From assembly GCA_002720745.1 (NCBI GenBank), contig PBJO01000007.1:261564-325563 (forward strand): a DNA stretch of 64,000 nucleotides, in the 5' to 3' direction. This document shows positions 15,058 to 24,089 of the stretch, piece by piece; position 1 is the first letter of the stretch, and the number at the start of each line of letters is the position of its first letter. The notes beneath the pieces are model-generated. The model made no database searches, was not told the origin of the DNA, and was given only the letters and a program-made list of their open reading frames with translations. Position numbers and translations under genes: made by a program. This DNA is from Balneola sp. GTDB lineage: Bacteria > Bacteroidota > Rhodothermia > Balneolales > Balneolaceae.

Positions 15058-15867
15058 CTATGGGTTGATGATATTAAATGTTGATTTCAGGGTATCACTA
15101 AATAGTCCCGCTTTATCCTTTGCATAGTAAAGTACGGTTCTGTTTTGTGGTGTGTTTGAACTGTTAACAGAAAATGTGATGGTATATACCGAATCACCCG
15201 CTACTTCGTCTAAACCTGTTCCTGAATCGGTTAGAACATTCGGTGTAGGAGTGAGTATGCTGCCATCTTCATCTTCAAACGCGATGAAAACTCTATCGAG
15301 TGTTTCTTGTCCATCTGGGTCGGTCACCTTAGCTTGGAATGGAATATTCAGCGTAGTAGACCCTGTAGGAATTTCAACAGAATTAGGATTCTCCACCCAA
15401 ATGATTTTGGGTGGAGAGCTAGCAATACCCTCTATTGACAATATGGCTTGATGTTGTATCCTATATCCATATCTGTCCAATGCATATAATTCAAGCAGTA
15501 ATCGCTCATATGAAGTCGTAGTTGTTTCCCAACTAAAATTGCCTTGAATTTCAATCGGTAAGGTGTCAATTATAAGTTTTTCCAAACTTTCCTGTAATAA
15601 AATCTCACTAGTTCTTGGATTTCTGACTATGTAACCTAAATGCTCTAAAAACTCAGAATTATGTAGTAGGGCAAAAAATGTATAGTGCAGCGTAGTATCC
15701 TTAAATCCATCTAAGTCCACATCAAAACTAATATCTGTTGGCTCCACACGAAAATGACTCAGATCAACAAATGTATAGGATTGCGTGGGTGTATAAGGTA
15801 TGTTATCGCAGTGGATGCCACCTAGAATGGCCAGAATAAGTGTAGACAAAAGAGCTTTATGGAACAT
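15058..15867 (-). CDS. Secreted or lipid-anchored Ig-like domain protein
   Basis: 269 residues. The N-terminus (LLSTLILAILGGIHC) ends in a cysteine that may be lipidated, though GIHC is a weak lipobox. The C-terminal half resembles an Ig-like or cadherin-like domain with a calcium-type signature (VTDPDGQETLDRVFIAFED, then LDEVAGDSVYTITFSV). The central portion is unfamiliar. It is the first gene of the eight-gene operon and lies one base upstream of the T9SS cargo gene. A surface or periplasmic partner of that cargo is a reasonable guess, not a demonstrated function. Confidence 0.65.
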   Translation of the reverse strand: MFHKALLSTLILAILGGIHCDNIPYTPTQSYTFVDLSHFRVEPTDISFDVDLDGFKDTTLHYTFFALLHNSEFLEHLGYIVRNPRTSEILLQESLEKLIIDTLPIEIQGNFSWETTTTSYERLLLELYALDRYGYRIQHQAILSIEGIASSPPKIIWVENPNSVEIPTGSTTLNIPFQAKVTDPDGQETLDRVFIAFEDEDGSILTPTPNVLTDSGTGLDEVAGDSVYTITFSVNSSNTPQNRTVLYYAKDKAGLFSDTLKSTFNIINP

Positions 15868-16013
15868 CCAGTATGCTTTCCTATAGGTTAAGGGAGGCCT
15901 TTAGACCTGCCACTCCATTAAACAAAATATAAGGCAAGTTTTACTATAAATGTATAATATCGCTAATCTAATTTATGTTGAATAAATGAGCTTGATAAAT
16001 TTTTGCTGATCCA

Positions 16014-16042
16014 TTGCATTTAGACTACAACAAAGGTATATT
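16014..16042 (+). promoter_or_regulatory. Candidate trp operon promoter
   Basis: TTGCAT (16014-16019) and TATATT (16037-16042) are separated by exactly 17 bases. Read in the Bacteroidota style, TTG is followed after 20 bases by TATATTTT, one base short of the TAnnTTTG consensus. Transcription from here would start near 16049 and would place the three leader hairpins in the mRNA. No experimental support is available. Confidence 0.5.
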
Positions 16043-16060
16043 TTTTAAATAGTCTTAACT

Positions 16061-16155
16061 CTTGACATGTTCAAGTCTCTAAAGATTGAAAATCTTAATT
16101 GTTCGGCTGTTACTAGTGTTTACCCACTTTTTTGCCAAAAAGTGGGTTTTTTTTT
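16061..16155 (+). terminator. trp leader: two small hairpins and an intrinsic terminator (attenuator candidate)
   Basis: Three inverted repeats follow one another: CTTGA/TCAAG at 16061-16075, AAGATT/AATCTT at 16082-16096, and a 10-bp stem CCCACTTTTT/AAAAAGTGGG at 16123-16146 with a four-base loop and a nine-T tail to 16155. The last is a textbook intrinsic terminator in plus orientation. The flanking genes diverge, so there is no upstream gene for it to end. It lies 58 bases before trpE, so it most plausibly controls readthrough into the trp operon. No Trp codon (TGG) occurs in the leader before it. Confidence 0.75.
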
Positions 16156-16213
16156 AAAAACGGATTGTTTTGGAGTTATCTAACTCACAATCACTTTTAT
16201 CTAGGTAAATAGA

Positions 16214-17692
16214 ATGAATGTTGAATCGTTTAAACAACTAGCCAAAACATTCTCGGCTATACCAGTATATCGACAGCTTTTAGCTGATACTTTAACGCCC
16301 GTTTCACTTTTTTTCAATATTCGTGAGGGGAGCAATTATCCTTTCCTTTTTGAATCTGTTGAAGGTGGCGATCGGTTGGCTCGATATTCTTTTTTGGGTT
16401 GTAATCCATATGAAGTTTTGCAGTTTGATGGTCAGAAAACAGATTTGAGAGCGAAAGATGGAGAGCTAAGGGTTTTTGATTCCTACTTTGATGCCTTAAA
16501 AATTTGTACGACCAAATATACTGAACCTAACATTCCTGGTTTACCTCGTTTAACCGGTGGGGCTGTAGGCTTTTCATCCTATGACACCTTTAGAGAGGTT
16601 GAATATCTTCCAAATACTCCAAATGATGATCTTGGGTTACCCGAAGCTGTTTGGGGCTTTTACGATGAAATTTATGCATTTGATCATGTCAAACATCAGG
16701 TAATCCTCATTCATACAGTTCGAATTGAAAGTAGTACAGACGATGAGCTTGAATTACAAAAAATGTATGCAGAGGCCCAGTCATCCCTAGATCAAATGGA
16801 AGCAAAAGTAAATCGTGGAGTAAACAAATCACCCGATTTTTATATAAATCCAGATCACCTTCGTAGTAATATGGACCAGGCTTATTTTACTGAGATGGTT
16901 CAAAAAGCCAAAAATCATATTTACGAAGGAGACATATTTCAAGTAGTATTATCCCAACGGTTTGAAACGGATATGTCAGGTGATACTTTTATGCTCTATC
17001 GTGCATTACGCATGGTTAATCCTTCACCTTATTTATTTTACTTAGATTTTGATCACTTTACGTTAGTTGGCAGTTCTCCAGAGGTGCTGGTAAGTGTACA
17101 AGATCAAAGGGTTCGAGTTTTACCTATCGCAGGAACAAGAAAAAGAGGTGCAAGCCTGCAAGAAGATTTGCAATTAGAAGCAGACTTAAAGAAAGACCCA
17201 AAAGAAATAGCCGAACATATTATGTTGGTTGACTTAGGACGCAATGATGTGTCTAGAGTCTGTGAAGCTGGTTCGATTCGTTTAGATAGAAATCAAGTGA
17301 TAGAACGATATTCTCATGTTATGCATATTGTGAGTGATGTATCAGGTCAATTAGCTAAAGAGAAAACGACTGTTGACGCCCTCATGCAATGCTTTCCAGC
17401 AGGGACCGTAAGTGGGGCTCCAAAAATTCGTGCCATGGAAATTATCGATGAAATGGAGCCCACAAAACGCGGAATTTACGCAGGAGCTGTCGGATATTTT
17501 GATTATTCAGGCAATATGGATACTTGTATAGCTATTAGAACTATGGTTGTAACCGGTAATAAGGTGTATATTCAAGCCGGTGCAGGCATAGTAGCTGATA
17601 GTGTAGCTGAAAGTGAATTTGAGGAGACAGTTAATAAAGCAGGCGCCTTAGTAAAAGCCTTAAGTACTGCCTTAGATATACGAGATAACTAA
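16214..17692 (+). CDS. trpE: Anthranilate synthase component I
   Basis: Converts chorismate plus ammonia, supplied by TrpG, to anthranilate, the first committed step of tryptophan synthesis. The 492-residue protein has the chorismate-binding architecture. The N-terminal feedback region carries PFLFESVEGGDRLARYSFLG, equivalent to the LLESAE-type tryptophan-binding motif, so allosteric inhibition is expected. The C-terminal catalytic half contains IFQVVLSQRF, the GTRKRG motif, HIMLVDLGRND and FPAGTVSGAPK. The first gene of a complete trp operon, preceded by the attenuator-like leader. trpS starts six bases after its stop. Confidence 0.96.
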   Translation: MNVESFKQLAKTFSAIPVYRQLLADTLTPVSLFFNIREGSNYPFLFESVEGGDRLARYSFLGCNPYEVLQFDGQKTDLRAKDGELRVFDSYFDALKICTTKYTEPNIPGLPRLTGGAVGFSSYDTFREVEYLPNTPNDDLGLPEAVWGFYDEIYAFDHVKHQVILIHTVRIESSTDDELELQKMYAEAQSSLDQMEAKVNRGVNKSPDFYINPDHLRSNMDQAYFTEMVQKAKNHIYEGDIFQVVLSQRFETDMSGDTFMLYRALRMVNPSPYLFYLDFDHFTLVGSSPEVLVSVQDQRVRVLPIAGTRKRGASLQEDLQLEADLKKDPKEIAEHIMLVDLGRNDVSRVCEAGSIRLDRNQVIERYSHVMHIVSDVSGQLAKEKTTVDALMQCFPAGTVSGAPKIRAMEIIDEMEPTKRGIYAGAVGYFDYSGNMDTCIAIRTMVVTGNKVYIQAGAGIVADSVAESEFEETVNKAGALVKALSTALDIRDN

Positions 17693-17698
17693 CATACG

Positions 17699-18694
17699 AT
17701 GCAACAAGAACCGACTAATCCAATCATACTTTCTGGTATACAGCCCTCTGGTAAATTACATATAGGGAATTACTTTGGGGCCATTAGGCAGCATATTGAA
17801 ATGCAGGATAAAGGCAGAGCCTTTTATTTCATTGCAAATTACCATTCGCTAACCTCACTTAAAGATGGAAAAGCCTTACGGCAGTTTACTTATGAGGTGG
17901 CATTAGACTATCTGGCACTAGGGCTTGATCCTGATAAAGCCACCTTCTTCGCTCAGTCAGATGTGCCTCAGGTAAATGAATTAGCATGGATTTTATCCAC
18001 CTTAACACCAGTAAGCTTGATGGAAAAAGGAGTTTCTTATAAAGACAAAATTTCAACGGGACTAAGTCCAAACATAGGATTATTTACCTATCCAATTCTT
18101 CAAGCAGCTGATATTTTGATTTATCATTCCGATATTGTACCTGTGGGGGAGGATCAGAAACAAAACATTGAGATTTGCCGTGACTTGGCAGTTAAGTTCA
18201 ATAGAGCCTATGAAGGAGATTTCTTGGTTGAACCAGAAGAGTATATCGTGAAATCGGTGGCAACCGTTCCTGGCACCGATGGTCAGAAAATGAGTAAGAG
18301 TTACGATAATACCCTAGCCATATTTGACCAGCCAAAGGCTTTAAAGAAGAAGATAATGAGCATCCAAACGGATTCAACCCCTCTAGAAGAACCAAAAGAT
18401 CCGTCAAAGGATAACGTATTTGCCTTAATTTCACTTTTTGCCTCACAAGACCAGAAAGAAGAGATTGCTCAGAAATATCGAGCCGGTGGATACGGTTATG
18501 GACATGCGAAAAAAGAATTATTAACACTTATTTCCGATTACTTTGCAGAGGCAACCGAACGCCGAAGGGAACTTAATCAACATCCAGAAAGGGTGTATGA
18601 GGTGCTTCAAGAGGGTGCAAAGAAAGCTCGCATTCAGGCTGAGCGTGTAATGCAACCTATACGAGATGTTGTTGGATTACATAGAAGCTTTTGA
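17699..18694 (+). CDS. trpS: Tryptophanyl-tRNA synthetase
   Basis: Charges tRNA-Trp in the cytoplasm. A class I synthetase of 331 residues with the HIGH-type motif HIGN (21-24), the tryptophan pocket region around GLFTYPILQAADIL and KMSKS at 197-201. Length and motifs are normal for bacterial TrpS. It is embedded between trpE and trpG with six bases before and eight after it, so the supply of charged tRNA-Trp and tryptophan synthesis would be transcribed together. This placement is not the common trp operon layout. Confidence 0.97.
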   Translation: MQQEPTNPIILSGIQPSGKLHIGNYFGAIRQHIEMQDKGRAFYFIANYHSLTSLKDGKALRQFTYEVALDYLALGLDPDKATFFAQSDVPQVNELAWILSTLTPVSLMEKGVSYKDKISTGLSPNIGLFTYPILQAADILIYHSDIVPVGEDQKQNIEICRDLAVKFNRAYEGDFLVEPEEYIVKSVATVPGTDGQKMSKSYDNTLAIFDQPKALKKKIMSIQTDSTPLEEPKDPSKDNVFALISLFASQDQKEEIAQKYRAGGYGYGHAKKELLTLISDYFAEATERRRELNQHPERVYEVLQEGAKKARIQAERVMQPIRDVVGLHRSF

Positions 18695-18702
18695 GGCAGG
18701 CC

Positions 18703-19275
18703 ATGATACTAATTATAGATAATTACGATTCTTTCACCTACAATCTTGTTCATTTAGTTGCCGAGCAAACAAACGATTATCGGGTCATAAGAAACGATGA
18801 GTGCAGCTTGTATCAAATAATTGACTTGCAACCGACGAAGATTTTAATATCACCCGGCCCAGGAAAACCAGAAGATGCAGGTGTTACCAAGCAAGTTATT
18901 GCTGAATTAGGACAAAAAATACCCATACTAGGCGTTTGCCTGGGGCATCAAGCCATAGGTGAAGTATTCGGAGCAAAGGTAGTGCATGCTCCAAGTTTAA
19001 TGCATGGCAAAACATCAATGGTTAAGCATTATGGAAGTCCCTTATTTAATTCTATCCCAGAAGAATTTGTCGCAACTCGATACCACTCTTTGGTACTTAG
19101 CCCTGAAAGCATACCAAACAGCTTGGAGGTTACTGCCTTGACGGACGATCATACCGGTACCATTGTCATGGGAGTACGCCATAAAAGCTATCCAATTGAA
19201 GGAATACAATTTCATCCTGAAAGTATTCTGACTATTGTAGGCCCTCAAATGGTTAAGAATTGGGTGATGCAATGA
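18703..19275 (+). CDS. trpG: Anthranilate synthase component II (glutamine amidotransferase)
   Basis: Hydrolyses glutamine and passes ammonia to TrpE. A class I amidotransferase of 190 residues with the catalytic triad C79 (GVCLGHQ), H171 and E173 (FHPES), and the typical start ILIIDNYDSFTYNL. The ATG at 18703 is chosen over an in-frame TTG at 18691 because it matches the family N-terminus and has GAGG seven bases upstream. There is no fused TrpD domain; TrpD is a separate gene 95 bases downstream. Confidence 0.96.
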   Translation: MILIIDNYDSFTYNLVHLVAEQTNDYRVIRNDECSLYQIIDLQPTKILISPGPGKPEDAGVTKQVIAELGQKIPILGVCLGHQAIGEVFGAKVVHAPSLMHGKTSMVKHYGSPLFNSIPEEFVATRYHSLVLSPESIPNSLEVTALTDDHTGTIVMGVRHKSYPIEGIQFHPESILTIVGPQMVKNWVMQ

Positions 19276-19370
19276 AAAAAGACTTAGGATTAATGTATCT
19301 CACCCAACATTCTATGAATCATTCCCAAGACCTTTATTAGAGCCTTAATACAATTTTAGCGCGGACCAAT

Positions 19371-20399
19371 ATGAATTATAATTTCAAGGAAACACTTCAA
19401 AACATCACTTTAGGCAATGACTTAAGCACGGGTGAGGCTATGTTTGCCTTAGAATCTATCATGAATGATGAAATTAGTTCTGAAGAAATAGCCTCCTTTT
19501 TAACCGCTATGAAAATGAAGGGAGAAACAATTGAAGAACTATCTTCCTTTGTTAAAGTTATGCGATCAAAATCTCTAAAGGTTCAAGCCGACATAACAGG
19601 TGCTGTAGATATTGTTGGGACAGGAGGAGATAAATCCGGTACCTTTAATATTTCCACCATTACTGCTTTTGTCACAGCCGCTGCAGGTGTTCCTGTGATC
19701 AAACATGGAAATAGAAGTGCGTCAAGTAAATGTGGGAGTGCTGATGTCTTAGAAATTCTTGGTGCAAATATAGAATTAAATCCAGTGCAGGTTGCTGAAG
19801 TTTTTGAACGAGTGGGTATTGCTTTTATGTATGCTCCAATGTTTCATCCAGCAATGAAATATGTCATGCCAGCTAGGAAAGCTATTGGGTTTCATACTTT
19901 TTTTAACATACTTGGCCCATTAACGAATCCTGCTGGTGTGCGAAATTATGTTATTGGTGCCTATAACAAAGATGTTGCGCATAAAATAGCTCAGATATTA
20001 GCGACACTTGATACCCAATTTGCCTATACGTTTAGCTCTGATGATGGACTTGACGAAGTAAGTTTATGCAACCCCACAACTTTTTTTGAGGTAAAAAAAC
20101 AATTAAGTTCTCAGCCAAGATTATTTGAACCTGAAGAATTAGACTTTAATCGTGTTGAAATGACAGAGCTTTTAGGTGGAGAACCATCAGAAAATGCTCG
20201 TATATTTATTGATATTTTGAGCAATAGAGCGACAGAGGCTCAAAAAAATATGGTAGTGCTTAATGCAGCATTTGCCATACATGCAGTAACTGACCTGCAA
20301 CATCTTCATGAAGCAAAAAATATAGCCGAAAAAGCTATCCAATCTGGTGCAGCTTTGAATAAACTTAATGAGTTCATATCGGCGACTCAGGCTTATTAA
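19371..20399 (+). CDS. trpD: Anthranilate phosphoribosyltransferase
   Basis: Transfers phosphoribose from PRPP to anthranilate. 342 residues, normal length, with the PRPP-binding GTGGDKSGTFN (83-93), KHGNR (111-115) and SSKCGSADVLE. It follows trpG after a 95-base gap that shows no terminator. Its stop is one base before the trpC ATG, so trpD and trpC are closely coupled. Confidence 0.96.
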   Translation: MNYNFKETLQNITLGNDLSTGEAMFALESIMNDEISSEEIASFLTAMKMKGETIEELSSFVKVMRSKSLKVQADITGAVDIVGTGGDKSGTFNISTITAFVTAAAGVPVIKHGNRSASSKCGSADVLEILGANIELNPVQVAEVFERVGIAFMYAPMFHPAMKYVMPARKAIGFHTFFNILGPLTNPAGVRNYVIGAYNKDVAHKIAQILATLDTQFAYTFSSDDGLDEVSLCNPTTFFEVKKQLSSQPRLFEPEELDFNRVEMTELLGGEPSENARIFIDILSNRATEAQKNMVVLNAAFAIHAVTDLQHLHEAKNIAEKAIQSGAALNKLNEFISATQAY

Positions 20400-20400
20400 T

Positions 20401-21210
20401 ATGAGTATACTTGAAAAGATAGTTTCCCAAACTAAGATTGACCTCAAAAAGAGAATCTTAGAACGCAGTTATACAAGCTTAGAATCGGAATGGGGCTTTG
20501 AAAAAGAGTTACAGTCATTCTCTCAAGCTATAAAAGGCAAAGTGGTTCAGTTTATAACTGAAGTTAAAAAAGCCTCTCCTTCTAAGGGTCTTATTCGAGA
20601 GGACTTTGACCCTGTGTCTTTAGCTAGAATCTATGAGAAATCAGGAGCCTCTGCTATATCAGTTCTAACTGAAGAACCCTTCTTTAAGGGGCATTTATCC
20701 TATTTGGATGATATTGCTCAACAAATTACTATTCCAATATTACGGAAAGACTTCATTATAAATCCATATCAGATAGTAGAAGCCAAGGCCTTTGGCGCAG
20801 ATGCCATACTATTAATTGCACGAATTCTATCTGACTCTCAGTTGGATGAGCTATTATCGGCAGCTAAAGAATATGAATTAGACGCCTTAGTAGAATGTTA
20901 TGATTTAGTTGACCAGGAACGCATCAATTATGAAAAAGTATCTATTCTTGGTGTAAATAATCGTGATTTAGAAACCTTTGAAGTTGATGTTCACCGTGGA
21001 GTATCACAGTTAAATATGGCTCCTGAGTCCACTATCACGGTCTCTGAAAGTGGTATTTCGACGGTTGATGATATTAAATTCTTACAAAAAAATGGTATAA
21101 ATGCTGTTTTAATTGGAGAACACTTAATGAGACAAAGCAATATTGGTGAAGAACTTAGAACATTGGTTTTAGCCGCCCAAAAAGCAGCTCATTCGCATGG
21201 CACAATATGA
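20401..21210 (+). CDS. trpC: Indole-3-glycerol phosphate synthase
   Basis: Cyclises CdRP to indole-3-glycerol phosphate. A TIM barrel of 269 residues with the catalytic segment EVKKASPSKG (54-63, general-acid lysines), the catalytic LRKDFI, and the C-terminal phosphate loop SESGIST. The start at 20401 (MSILEKIV) directly follows the trpD stop and fits the family. A longer in-frame start inside trpD is not needed. It is not fused to TrpF, unlike in enteric bacteria. Confidence 0.96.
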   Translation: MSILEKIVSQTKIDLKKRILERSYTSLESEWGFEKELQSFSQAIKGKVVQFITEVKKASPSKGLIREDFDPVSLARIYEKSGASAISVLTEEPFFKGHLSYLDDIAQQITIPILRKDFIINPYQIVEAKAFGADAILLIARILSDSQLDELLSAAKEYELDALVECYDLVDQERINYEKVSILGVNNRDLETFEVDVHRGVSQLNMAPESTITVSESGISTVDDIKFLQKNGINAVLIGEHLMRQSNIGEELRTLVLAAQKAAHSHGTI

Positions 21211-21304
21211 TAGTATTATAAAGTGCTGTAAAATTATTAATCAAGTGCCTTATAATTGGGTTGCATTACCCCAAATCTGGCCTAAAAGGGTAGAAAGTAA
21301 TTGA
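21197..21304 (+). CDS. Possible 35-residue ORF with two Trp codons, trpC-trpF gap
   Basis: An ATG at 21197, inside the last codons of trpC in another frame, opens a 35-codon frame that ends in TGA at 21302-21304. The peptide would begin MAQYDSIIKC and contains tryptophans at codons 21 and 28. The frame covers most of the 143-base gap before trpF. It may be a chance ORF. The two TGG codons and the overlapping hairpins make a regulatory leader peptide conceivable, but there is no independent coding evidence. Confidence 0.22.
   Translation: MAQYDSIIKCCKIINQVPYNWVALPQIWPKRVESN
21215..21274 (+). other. Two adjacent RNA hairpin candidates in the trpC-trpF gap
   Basis: The first stem pairs 21215-21226 with 21245-21256: twelve positions with one A-C mismatch and two pairs that are G-U wobbles on plus-strand RNA. 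The second is a short TTGGG/CCCAA stem at 21256-21260 and 21270-21274, so the two share one base at 21256. The second stem contains the first Trp codon of the small ORF. No T tract follows, so this is not a terminator. Confidence 0.35.
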
Positions 21305-21353
21305 TCTACTGATAAATTTACACAACATTGTTTAACTCAAATAATTGTGATAA

Positions 21354-22010
21354 TTGAAGAAATGTAAAGTGAAAATATGTGGGCTGACAAATTTAGCTGA
21401 TGCTAGGTTTGCAGCTGGAGCTGGTGCTGATTATTTAGGATTTATTTTTGTGGATGGAACACCAAGATATATAGAACCTGCCATGGTAGGTGCTATCAAT
21501 GAGTGGGTAGAAGGCCCAGAAAAGGTGGGGGTCTTTCAAAATCATGAACTCAGTTTTGTACAAGAAACCGCTCGACAGGTAGGTTTAGACCTAATTCAAC
21601 TTCATGGCCATGAAACAGTAGAATATTGTTCCCAACTAGCACAAATTTATAGCATAATTAAAGTTATTTCTATGGAAGAAAAATCGACCTCAACTGAACT
21701 TTCACAAATACTTAATTCTTACAAAGATGTATGTAGTTACTTCATGTTTGATACTAAGATCAATGGGCAAAGTGGGGGCACAGGCATCTCCTTTGATTGG
21801 GCAATTATTAACGAATTGGATATTCCACTACCTTACTTCTTATCCGGTGGATTATCACATATGACAGTAAATTCAGCCTTGGAATTACTTTCAGGGAACC
21901 CTCCATTAGCTATTGATGTATCTTCTAAAATAGAAGAAAGTATAGGTATTAAAGATTTTGATAAACTATCTTTGTTAATGGAAGAAGTTAACCTAAATTC
22001 TAAAGATTAG
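21354..22010 (+). CDS. trpF: Phosphoribosylanthranilate isomerase
   Basis: Isomerises PRA to CdRP, the step between TrpD and TrpC. A TIM barrel of 218 residues with the N-terminal KICGLT (catalytic cysteine C9), QLHG, the catalytic aspartate in MFDTKI, and the phosphate site SGGLS. There is no ATG in frame before the essential KICGLT segment: the start must be the TTG at 21354 or the GTG at 21369. Both would keep the active site. The weak start and the 143-base structured gap upstream suggest lower or regulated translation relative to its neighbours. Confidence 0.93.
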   Translation: MKKCKVKICGLTNLADARFAAGAGADYLGFIFVDGTPRYIEPAMVGAINEWVEGPEKVGVFQNHELSFVQETARQVGLDLIQLHGHETVEYCSQLAQIYSIIKVISMEEKSTSTELSQILNSYKDVCSYFMFDTKINGQSGGTGISFDWAIINELDIPLPYFLSGGLSHMTVNSALELLSGNPPLAIDVSSKIEESIGIKDFDKLSLLMEEVNLNSKD

Positions 22011-22068
22011 ACTTCCAAATTCTTCAATCGTTATATTCAACTAACTGATCATACCTCAAATCACAATA

Positions 22069-23268
22069 ATGTCTGTTATTACTACAAACACTTATTCCGA
22101 GCCCAATCATAAAGGATATTTTGGAGCCTATGGGGGTAAATTTGTCCCAGAGACACTGATACCAGCCCTAAATGAACTCGAGTGTGCTTACAAAGAGGCC
22201 AGCGAAGATCCTGAATTTGAGAATGAGTATCTACGCTTACTGCATGAATATGTAGGAAGACCTACCGAATTAAGTTTTGCTGATCGTTTAACCAATTATT
22301 ATGGTGGTGCAAAGATCTATTTAAAGCGCGAGGATTTATGCCATACTGGTGCACACAAAATAAATAATGCTATTGGCCAGATACTCTTAGCACTAAAAAT
22401 GGGAAAGAAGAGAATAATTGCTGAAACTGGCGCAGGTCAGCATGGTGTGGCAACTGCAACTGCATGTGCGAAATTTGGAGTGGAATGCATAGTCTATATG
22501 GGAGAAGAAGATATGGTACGTCAAAAACTCAATGTCGATCGAATGCGATTGATGGGAGCGGAAGTTCGTGGAGTAAGTAGTGGTTCTAAAACTTTAAAAG
22601 ATGCAACCAACGAAGCTATACGCGATTGGGTTACTAATGTCGATGATACATTCTATATCATAGGTTCAGTAGTTGGTCCTCACCCATACCCTATGATGGT
22701 TAGAAATTTCCACCGCATAATTGGTGATGAAACCAAGCGACAATTAATGGACATTGAAGGGCGATTGCCTGATTATCTAATCGCATGTGTTGGAGGTGGA
22801 TCCAATGCTATTGGTATTTTTTATCCATTTATTAATGATAATGTACATATTATTGGGATTGAAGCAGGTGGATTAGGAGTTGAATCTGGACAAACAGCTG
22901 CTACCTTGACCAAAGGAATACCTGGCGTGCTCCATGGGTCAATGAGTTATCTTCTCCATGATCAAGAAGGACAAATTGAATTAGCCCATTCAATCAGTGC
23001 TGGGTTAGATTATCCTGGAATTGGTCCAGAACACGCTTACTTACACGATACAAAAAGAGTCGATTACCGTGCTGTGACTGATGCACAAGCACTTGAAGCA
23101 GTGTCTTTACTTTCCAGGTTAGAGGGAATAATTCCTGCTTTGGAAACAGCGCACGCTTTTGCCTGGCTGGATGAGCTAATGCCAAAAACTACATCCGAAG
23201 AGATTGTTGTACTGAATTGTTCTGGTAGAGGTGATAAAGACATGGAAACCATTTCCAGATATCTTTAA
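22069..23268 (+). CDS. trpB: Tryptophan synthase beta chain
   Basis: Condenses indole with serine using PLP. 399 residues, normal for TrpB1, with [15 protein letters not shown] at the N-terminus, the PLP lysine K97 in [18 protein letters not shown], and the phosphate loop [10 protein letters not shown]. It is 58 bases after trpF and five bases before trpA, with which it forms the alpha-beta complex. Confidence 0.97.
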
Positions 23269-23273
23269 GATAA

Positions 23274-24089
23274 ATGGAACACTTAATGAATCGAATTAAT
23301 AAGGTTTTTGAGCAAAAGAAAGACGAAAAAGTTATGAGTCTTTTCATTACTGCTGGATATCCTGATATAAATGAAACCGTTGATCTAATATTAGGATTTG
23401 AACGCAATGGAGCTGACATTATTGAACTAGGTATGCCATTTAGTGACCCATTAGCTGATGGACCGACCATTCAATACTCATCCAATATGGCCATTTCTAA
23501 TGGGGTAACCATTCAAGGCATATTTGGCATGGTGGCTGAAACTAGAAAAAACTCTGAAATTCCAATTATATTAATGGGATACATTAATCCTATACTTAGG
23601 TTCGGATTGGGGGAATTTTTCTCTAGTGCAGCTAAGGCTGGTGTAGACGGGCTAATTGTACCTGATCTACCACTCGACGAAGCAACTATGATTGAGGAAT
23701 TTGCTCATACACATGAAATCCAACTAATTTACTTAATTGCACCTAATACGAGTGATGAAAGAATGCAATTAAGTGATGATAAATCCAATGGGTTTGTATA
23801 TTGCGTGTCGGTAACGGGAGTTACAGGCGCTAGAGATGGTAGTGAGGTTCAGCAATCAGTAGATACATTCATTCAACGCTCAAAAGCAAACATCACTAAA
23901 AACCCATTGATGGTCGGTTTTGGAATAAAAAATTATAATGATGCACAAAGTATATCTAAAGAGGTAGATGGTTTTATCGTTGGTAGTGCACTTATTGAAA
24001 CAATAAAAAATGCGTATCCAAATGAGCATTGGAAGGAAGAGGTCTTTAACTTTGTGCATCAACTCAAATTTGGCTATCCTAATCAATAG
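23274..24089 (+). CDS. trpA: Tryptophan synthase alpha chain
   Basis: Cleaves indole-3-glycerol phosphate and channels indole to TrpB. 271 residues with both catalytic residues in place: E51 (IIELGMPFSDP) and D62 (ADGPTIQ). The glycine-rich phosphate site GFGIKNYND is also present. The ATG at 23274 is used; a second ATG at 23286 (MNRINKVF) matches the family start equally well. It is the last trp gene. No intrinsic terminator is evident in the 84 bases before the DUF4837 gene, so readthrough is possible. Confidence 0.96.
   Translation: MEHLMNRINKVFEQKKDEKVMSLFITAGYPDINETVDLILGFERNGADIIELGMPFSDPLADGPTIQYSSNMAISNGVTIQGIFGMVAETRKNSEIPIILMGYINPILRFGLGEFFSSAAKAGVDGLIVPDLPLDEATMIEEFAHTHEIQLIYLIAPNTSDERMQLSDDKSNGFVYCVSVTGVTGARDGSEVQQSVDTFIQRSKANITKNPLMVGFGIKNYNDAQSISKEVDGFIVGSALIETIKNAYPNEHWKEEVFNFVHQLKFGYPNQ

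Follow-up and report, generated by a model that had tools for sequence, protein, structure and literature searches.

The trp operon and its leader

The window, that is, the whole 64,000-nucleotide stretch of the Balneola sp. genome (G000) analysed here, contains a trp operon with the gene order trpE-trpS-trpG-trpD-trpC-trpF-trpB-trpA, with a divergently oriented gene upstream of trpE. The trpS gene immediately follows trpE in 38 of the 39 tested loci of the order Balneolales (L031–L069). The genes and the predicted features of the leader are listed in Table 1.

Table 1. Features of the trp locus (positions in the window)
Feature	Position	Strand	Basis
Promoter TTGCAT-17-TATATT	16014..16042	+	sequence; family homologues; 9/9 genomes of the genus
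P1, predicted 7-bp stem AATAGTC (16048–16054) / GGCTGTT (16105–16111)	16048..16111	+	covariation; single-sequence folds
P2, predicted hairpin with a bulge, apical CTCTAAAG at 16077–16084	16072..16088	+	covariation; motif conservation
Single-stranded spacer ACTAGTGTTT between P1 and the terminator	16112..16121	+	7/10 columns invariant
Predicted intrinsic terminator: 11-bp stem, 4-base loop, nine T	16122..16155	+	scan; 9/9 genomes
Possible small ORF LFWSYLTHNHFYLGK (TTG start), stop 1 base 5' of trpE	16165..16212	+	weak
P3, hairpin TTGGAGTT-ATCT-AACTCACAA, 3' of the terminator	16170..16190	+	folds in all clusters
trpE, anthranilate synthase component I	16214..17692	+	TIGR00564, 559 bits (cut-off 517.7)
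trpS, tryptophanyl-tRNA synthetase, second gene of the operon	17699..18694	+	TIGR00233, 294 bits (cut-off 176.75)
trpG, trpD, trpC, trpF, trpB, trpA	18691..24089	+	NCBIfam matches; ORFs

The promoter proposed in an earlier sequence-only reading was recovered by a check of the sequence, with TTGCAT at 16014–16019, TATATT at 16037–16042 and 17 bases between them. The first pair of P1 is situated about six bases 3' of the −10 hexamer, near the predicted transcript start. P1 encloses P2, and the terminator comes next; the three inverted repeats of the same reading are thus better described as a nested domain followed by a terminator than as three hairpins in a row. The last repeat had been described as a 10-bp stem with nine T. 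The T run (16147–16155) was correct, whereas the arms ACCCACTTTTT (16122–16132) and AAAAAGTGGGT (16137–16147) form 11 perfect pairs. The distance of 58 bases between the T run and the trpE start codon (16214) also agrees with the original description. The resulting leader RNA would be roughly 107 nt long. Since the T run is present on the plus-strand side only, and the upstream ORF (15058–15867, minus strand) is divergent, the terminator is not the end of an upstream gene, as had been argued earlier.

The terminator scan yielded three sites in 1 kb, compared to 0.7 ± 0.9 in shuffled sequences, the site at 16122–16155 being the strongest by far. Each of the nine genomes of the genus has it, with 98.9% of the cells paired, and the changes within the stem mostly retain pairing through G–U. 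Synonymous sites in the genus are near saturation, yet no genome has lost the terminator. It is very probable that the leader contains a working terminator; the transcript start, the termination and the response to tryptophan are all inferred from the sequence.

Ribosome-mediated attenuation in other Balneolales

We compared approximately 450 bases upstream of trpE in 105 genomes, nine from the genus of the window, 74 from other members of the family Balneolaceae and 22 from the remainder of the order. Outside the genus, 95 of 96 Balneolales genomes have a short ORF in which two or more Trp codons are clustered. Among 93 leader peptides starting with ATG, 81 contain WWW, e.g. MKNATLHTNNWWWPRLT and MLKKQLHNTWWWPNAYISSGIVA; the peptides of G030 and G068 begin with TTG and GTG. 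The Trp codons are followed by an antiterminator strand, such as CAGTGGG, complementary to the 5' arm of the terminator, CCCACTG. The two partners change together between groups of genomes (CAGTGGG/CCCACTG, AACAGCGGG/CCCGCTGTT, CTGAAAGCGG/CCGCTTTCAG), and an antiterminator strand with 6–10 perfect pairs is seen in 72 of the 91 scored genomes outside the genus. The whole leader of the relatives folds into hairpin 1:2 and the terminator, and deletion of everything as far as the Trp codons yields the antiterminator. The scores of the Rfam Trp_leader model (RF00513) in these leaders reach 27.5 bits, under the threshold of 41 bits.

Given the Trp-codon peptides, the covarying antiterminators and the classical alternative folds of the relatives, enteric-type attenuation is almost certainly ancestral here, as judged from sequence comparison, and was then lost in the genus of the window. 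The sequence-only reading, having found no TGG in the window leader before the terminator, which is correct, did not support the enteric type. This holds for the genus, but the mechanism is not foreign to the group, being its ancestral state. A search of the open-access literature retrieved nothing on trp attenuation in the Balneolales or Bacteroidetes and, within its incomplete coverage, no account of Trp-codon leader peptides in the Balneolales.

In the relatives from the family, the start of the Trp leader peptide is usually situated about nine bases after a TATATT-like −10 hexamer (L010–L028, L111–L163), which suggests that the peptide is translated from a leaderless or nearly leaderless transcript. 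The sole exception outside the genus is G055 (L167), from another family of the order, that has no Trp codons and has kept the terminator. It is possible that this is a second, independent loss of the Trp-codon leader peptide.

A promoter of the form TTG[CA][TA]..N15–19..(TATATT-like) precedes the Trp leader peptide at the matching position in 65 of the 74 other family genomes, 47 of these 65 having the 17-base spacer, and all nine genomes of the genus have retained the trp promoter. The window promoter escaped a strict scan, since TTGCAT matches TTGACA at only three of six positions. Since its equivalents occupy the same place in these 65 genomes, the window promoter is real by homology. No consistent −10 hexamer of a second promoter between the terminator and trpE was seen by eye. 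Upstream of the trp promoter, the block ATATAAGGCAAGT (window region 15948–15965) is identical in the nine genomes and probably serves the divergent gene as its promoter.

Loss of the ribosomal sensor and the search for known regulators

None of the nine genomes of the genus has a run of Trp codons before the terminator. The antiterminator strand is absent from all eight scored members, which yield at most five pairs, no better than shuffled sequences. No conserved leader ORF was found before the terminator among the ORFs listed, several per genome, the list being partial for G007 and G002. The 38-codon ATG ORF of the window was rejected as a leader peptide, as it extends across the terminator, and genomes beyond the close cluster of the window show no equivalent of it. 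The RF00513 model does not match the window leader, and the matches to other known RNA families were all sub-threshold and chance-like. No tRNA was called in the window, and hence a tRNA-like gene was discarded as an explanation of the leader.

The sequence-only reading had suggested a protein, a T-box-like RNA or another RNA as the sensor. TRAP (MtrB, PF02081) was not found in any of the nine genomes, while the Bacillus subtilis control was detected, and TRAP control is therefore not supported. Nor is the T-box suggestion, since there is no RF00230 match in the nine genomes or in the window and no UGG specifier in the leader. The spacer sequence TGTNACTAGTG resembles half of a TrpR site (motif from PMC9413887), but eight of the nine members have no TrpR-family gene, and TrpR control was rejected. 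The single PF01371 (TrpR family) protein, found in the genome of the window, passes the YerC/YecD cut-off, fails the TrpR cut-off and abuts hisG. This YerC/YecD (HisR)-type protein is 87 aa long, and its gene overlaps the hisG start (L208:1495–1758, contig C5). As a YerC-type gene occurs in only one of the nine genomes, the his locus of G000 may have been acquired or may be differently regulated.

A covarying domain in the genus

The alignment of the leaders of the genus, a comparison of the kind proposed earlier as a check, features two covarying stems. In P1, four of seven pairs have changed on both sides and 95.2% of the cells are paired; in P2, three of six pairs have changed on both sides, with 96.3% of the cells paired. 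Jointly, this amounts to seven pairs with two-sided changes and 95.7% of the cells pairing. None of 500 shuffles reached the covariation score, although the relatedness of the genomes, which form about five independent clusters, inflates such controls, and slid partners pair in only 21–53% of the cells. P1 is present in the single-sequence minimum-energy folds of eight of the nine genomes and is damaged in G003. Based on the comparison of some five independent clusters, P1 is likely to be real, and P2 is a probable structure on the same basis.

As the yardstick for conservation, we used the fourfold-degenerate sites of trpE, 5% of which are invariant and up to 60–70% of which differ between clusters. 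By comparison, six of eight columns are invariant in the apical motif of P2, CUCYAAAG across the genus, seven of ten in the spacer ACTAGTGTTT, and 64% in the terminator. Just past the terminator, the heptamer GTTTTGG (16167–16173), shared in part by P3, is invariant in all seven columns. P3 folds in all clusters and scores better than 95–99.7% of shuffles. None of the 19 columns between P1 and P2 is conserved, and these linking bases set the leader apart from most riboswitches. P1 and the terminator use different bases and coexist without competition. A search for the element in the nine genomes yielded one copy in each, before trpE only, and no others above chance, which is consistent with control in cis.

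Possible roles of the leader

Transcription attenuation, the proposal of the sequence-only reading, is well supported by the descent of the leader and by the conservation of the promoter and terminator, the lack of which would, according to that reading, have refuted it. The reading that we favour, tentatively and as somewhat short of an even chance, is that the trp attenuator of the genus derives from a ribosome-mediated one, and that its read-through is now set by a non-ribosomal factor. The usual leader of the Balneolales consists of one promoter, a short Trp-codon peptide, the antiterminator strand and the terminator. In the genus, the promoter and terminator have stayed, neither Trp codons nor an antiterminator strand are left, and the P1/P2 domain precedes the terminator. 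The latter would still halt a part of the transcripts before trpE, and the read-through would depend not on Trp codons but on a factor, more probably a protein than a small ligand, that recognises the ACTAGTGTTT spacer next to the terminator, CUCYAAAG in P2, or both. The retention of the promoter and terminator in nine genomes, with just 5% of the trpE fourfold sites invariant, argues for an attenuator. On the other hand, as P1 and the terminator share no bases and the genus yielded no strong antiterminator, the leader lacks the architecture that a switch normally has. We give regulated read-through by a non-ribosomal sensor slightly less than an even chance.

The main rival, which we consider rather unlikely, is a relic acting as a fixed brake: the sensor was lost, the terminator cuts trp expression by a constant factor, sensing of tryptophan at the transcript level is gone, and P1 is a 5'-end stem protecting or insulating the mRNA. 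It would account for the absence of Trp codons and the antiterminator strand from all members, for the fact that none of the known tryptophan regulators (TRAP, TrpR, T-box) was found in the genus, and for the lack of competition between P1 and the terminator. The genomes of the genus are also small, 1.4–2.7 Mb compared to mostly 3–5 Mb in the family (some are incomplete), and G055 likewise has a terminator without Trp codons outside the genus. However, a mere brake does not explain why the terminator, the apical motif and the spacer are strongly held although the fourfold sites differ so widely, and expression could be lowered more simply by weakening the promoter. A distinctly improbable alternative places the control 3' of the terminator, where an ORF starting with MFW, whose third codon is that for Trp and whose stop lies at the start of trpE, would couple trpE translation to the supply of Trp-tRNA. 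This ORF is open in all nine genomes, its stop lies −11 to +4 bases from the trpE start, and the invariant GTTTTGG is consistent with it. Against it, its start is ATG in six genomes and TTG in three, there is no coding pattern (codon positions 1, 2 and 3 are equally conserved, 3, 4 and 4 of 11), the P3 hairpin accounts for the region equally well, and a stalled ribosome would by default lower, not raise, the coupled translation.

Two other schemes assign the conserved motifs to different partners. The leader might be a small regulatory RNA of about 107 nt that uses CUCYAAAG or the spacer to work either in trans or on its own read-through product; Sinorhizobium is known to have trp leaders that act in trans (PMC7298713). 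The RNA is compact, it exposes an invariant spacer before the terminator, and CUCYAAAG can pair with UUUUGGA 3' of the terminator; yet this pairing shows one-sided changes only, and the scheme accounts for less of the history, so we regard it as highly unlikely. The poorest prospect, with a very slim chance of being correct, is that P2 is a mimic of the tRNA-Trp anticodon arm to which TrpRS binds, in an autogenous circuit as in E. coli thrS. The loop of tRNA-Trp in the genus is indeed CTCCAAA, and trpS directly follows trpE. However, five of the nine genomes have CUCUAAA, with CUA replacing CCA, the covarying P2 stem leaves a 4-base loop and not a 7-base one, and the trpE-trpS arrangement is widespread in the Balneolales, including members with the Trp peptide.

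If the favoured reading of a non-ribosomal factor is correct, the leader may represent a new type of attenuator, in which a compact 5' hairpin domain with the CUCYAAAG loop and an invariant spacer stand beside an intrinsic terminator, a putative protein or ligand acts as the reader, and the whole replaces ribosome-mediated attenuation in one genus of the Balneolaceae; we consider such novelty doubtful. We found no earlier description of the loss of the sensor with the output kept, or of the covarying domain, while the parts are of a known kind, that of transcription attenuators. The literature retrieved on tryptophan riboswitches and aptamers deals, judging by the titles, mostly with synthetic or selected RNAs. 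As nearly every genome of the order retains the classical trp attenuator, the genus offers a natural experiment: the textbook sensor was removed while the output was kept, and one can examine directly if regulation was taken over by something else or abandoned. Another product of the comparison is a catalogue of the leader peptides with Trp codons in the Balneolales.

Comparison with known systems

The leader resembles several known regulatory systems in part. With the synthetase autogenous control of E. coli thrS, it shares a hairpin resembling an anticodon arm and a synthetase gene in the operon, but the anticodon is lost in five of the nine genomes, and the loop is of the wrong size. As in T-box riboswitches (RF00230), a structured leader ends in a terminator; unlike them, it is only about 107 nt long and has neither the UGG specifier nor a T-box match in the nine genomes. 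The TRAP-controlled trp leader of Bacillus subtilis also exerts terminator-based attenuation without Trp codons and, if the favoured reading is true, the two would have a trans-acting factor in common; the differences are the absence of a TRAP gene from the nine genomes and a hairpin domain in place of the array of (G/U)AG repeats. In the textbook trp attenuator, the ribosome stalls on tryptophan codons. This ribosome-mediated system (RF00513, the E. coli trpL type, and that of other Balneolales) is similar to the leader of the genus in the position before trpE, the promoter, and the terminator with the CCCAC/GTGGG stem and a T run, reflecting common descent, whereas the genus, having no Trp-codon peptide, antiterminator strand or RF00513 match, features the P1/P2 domain instead.
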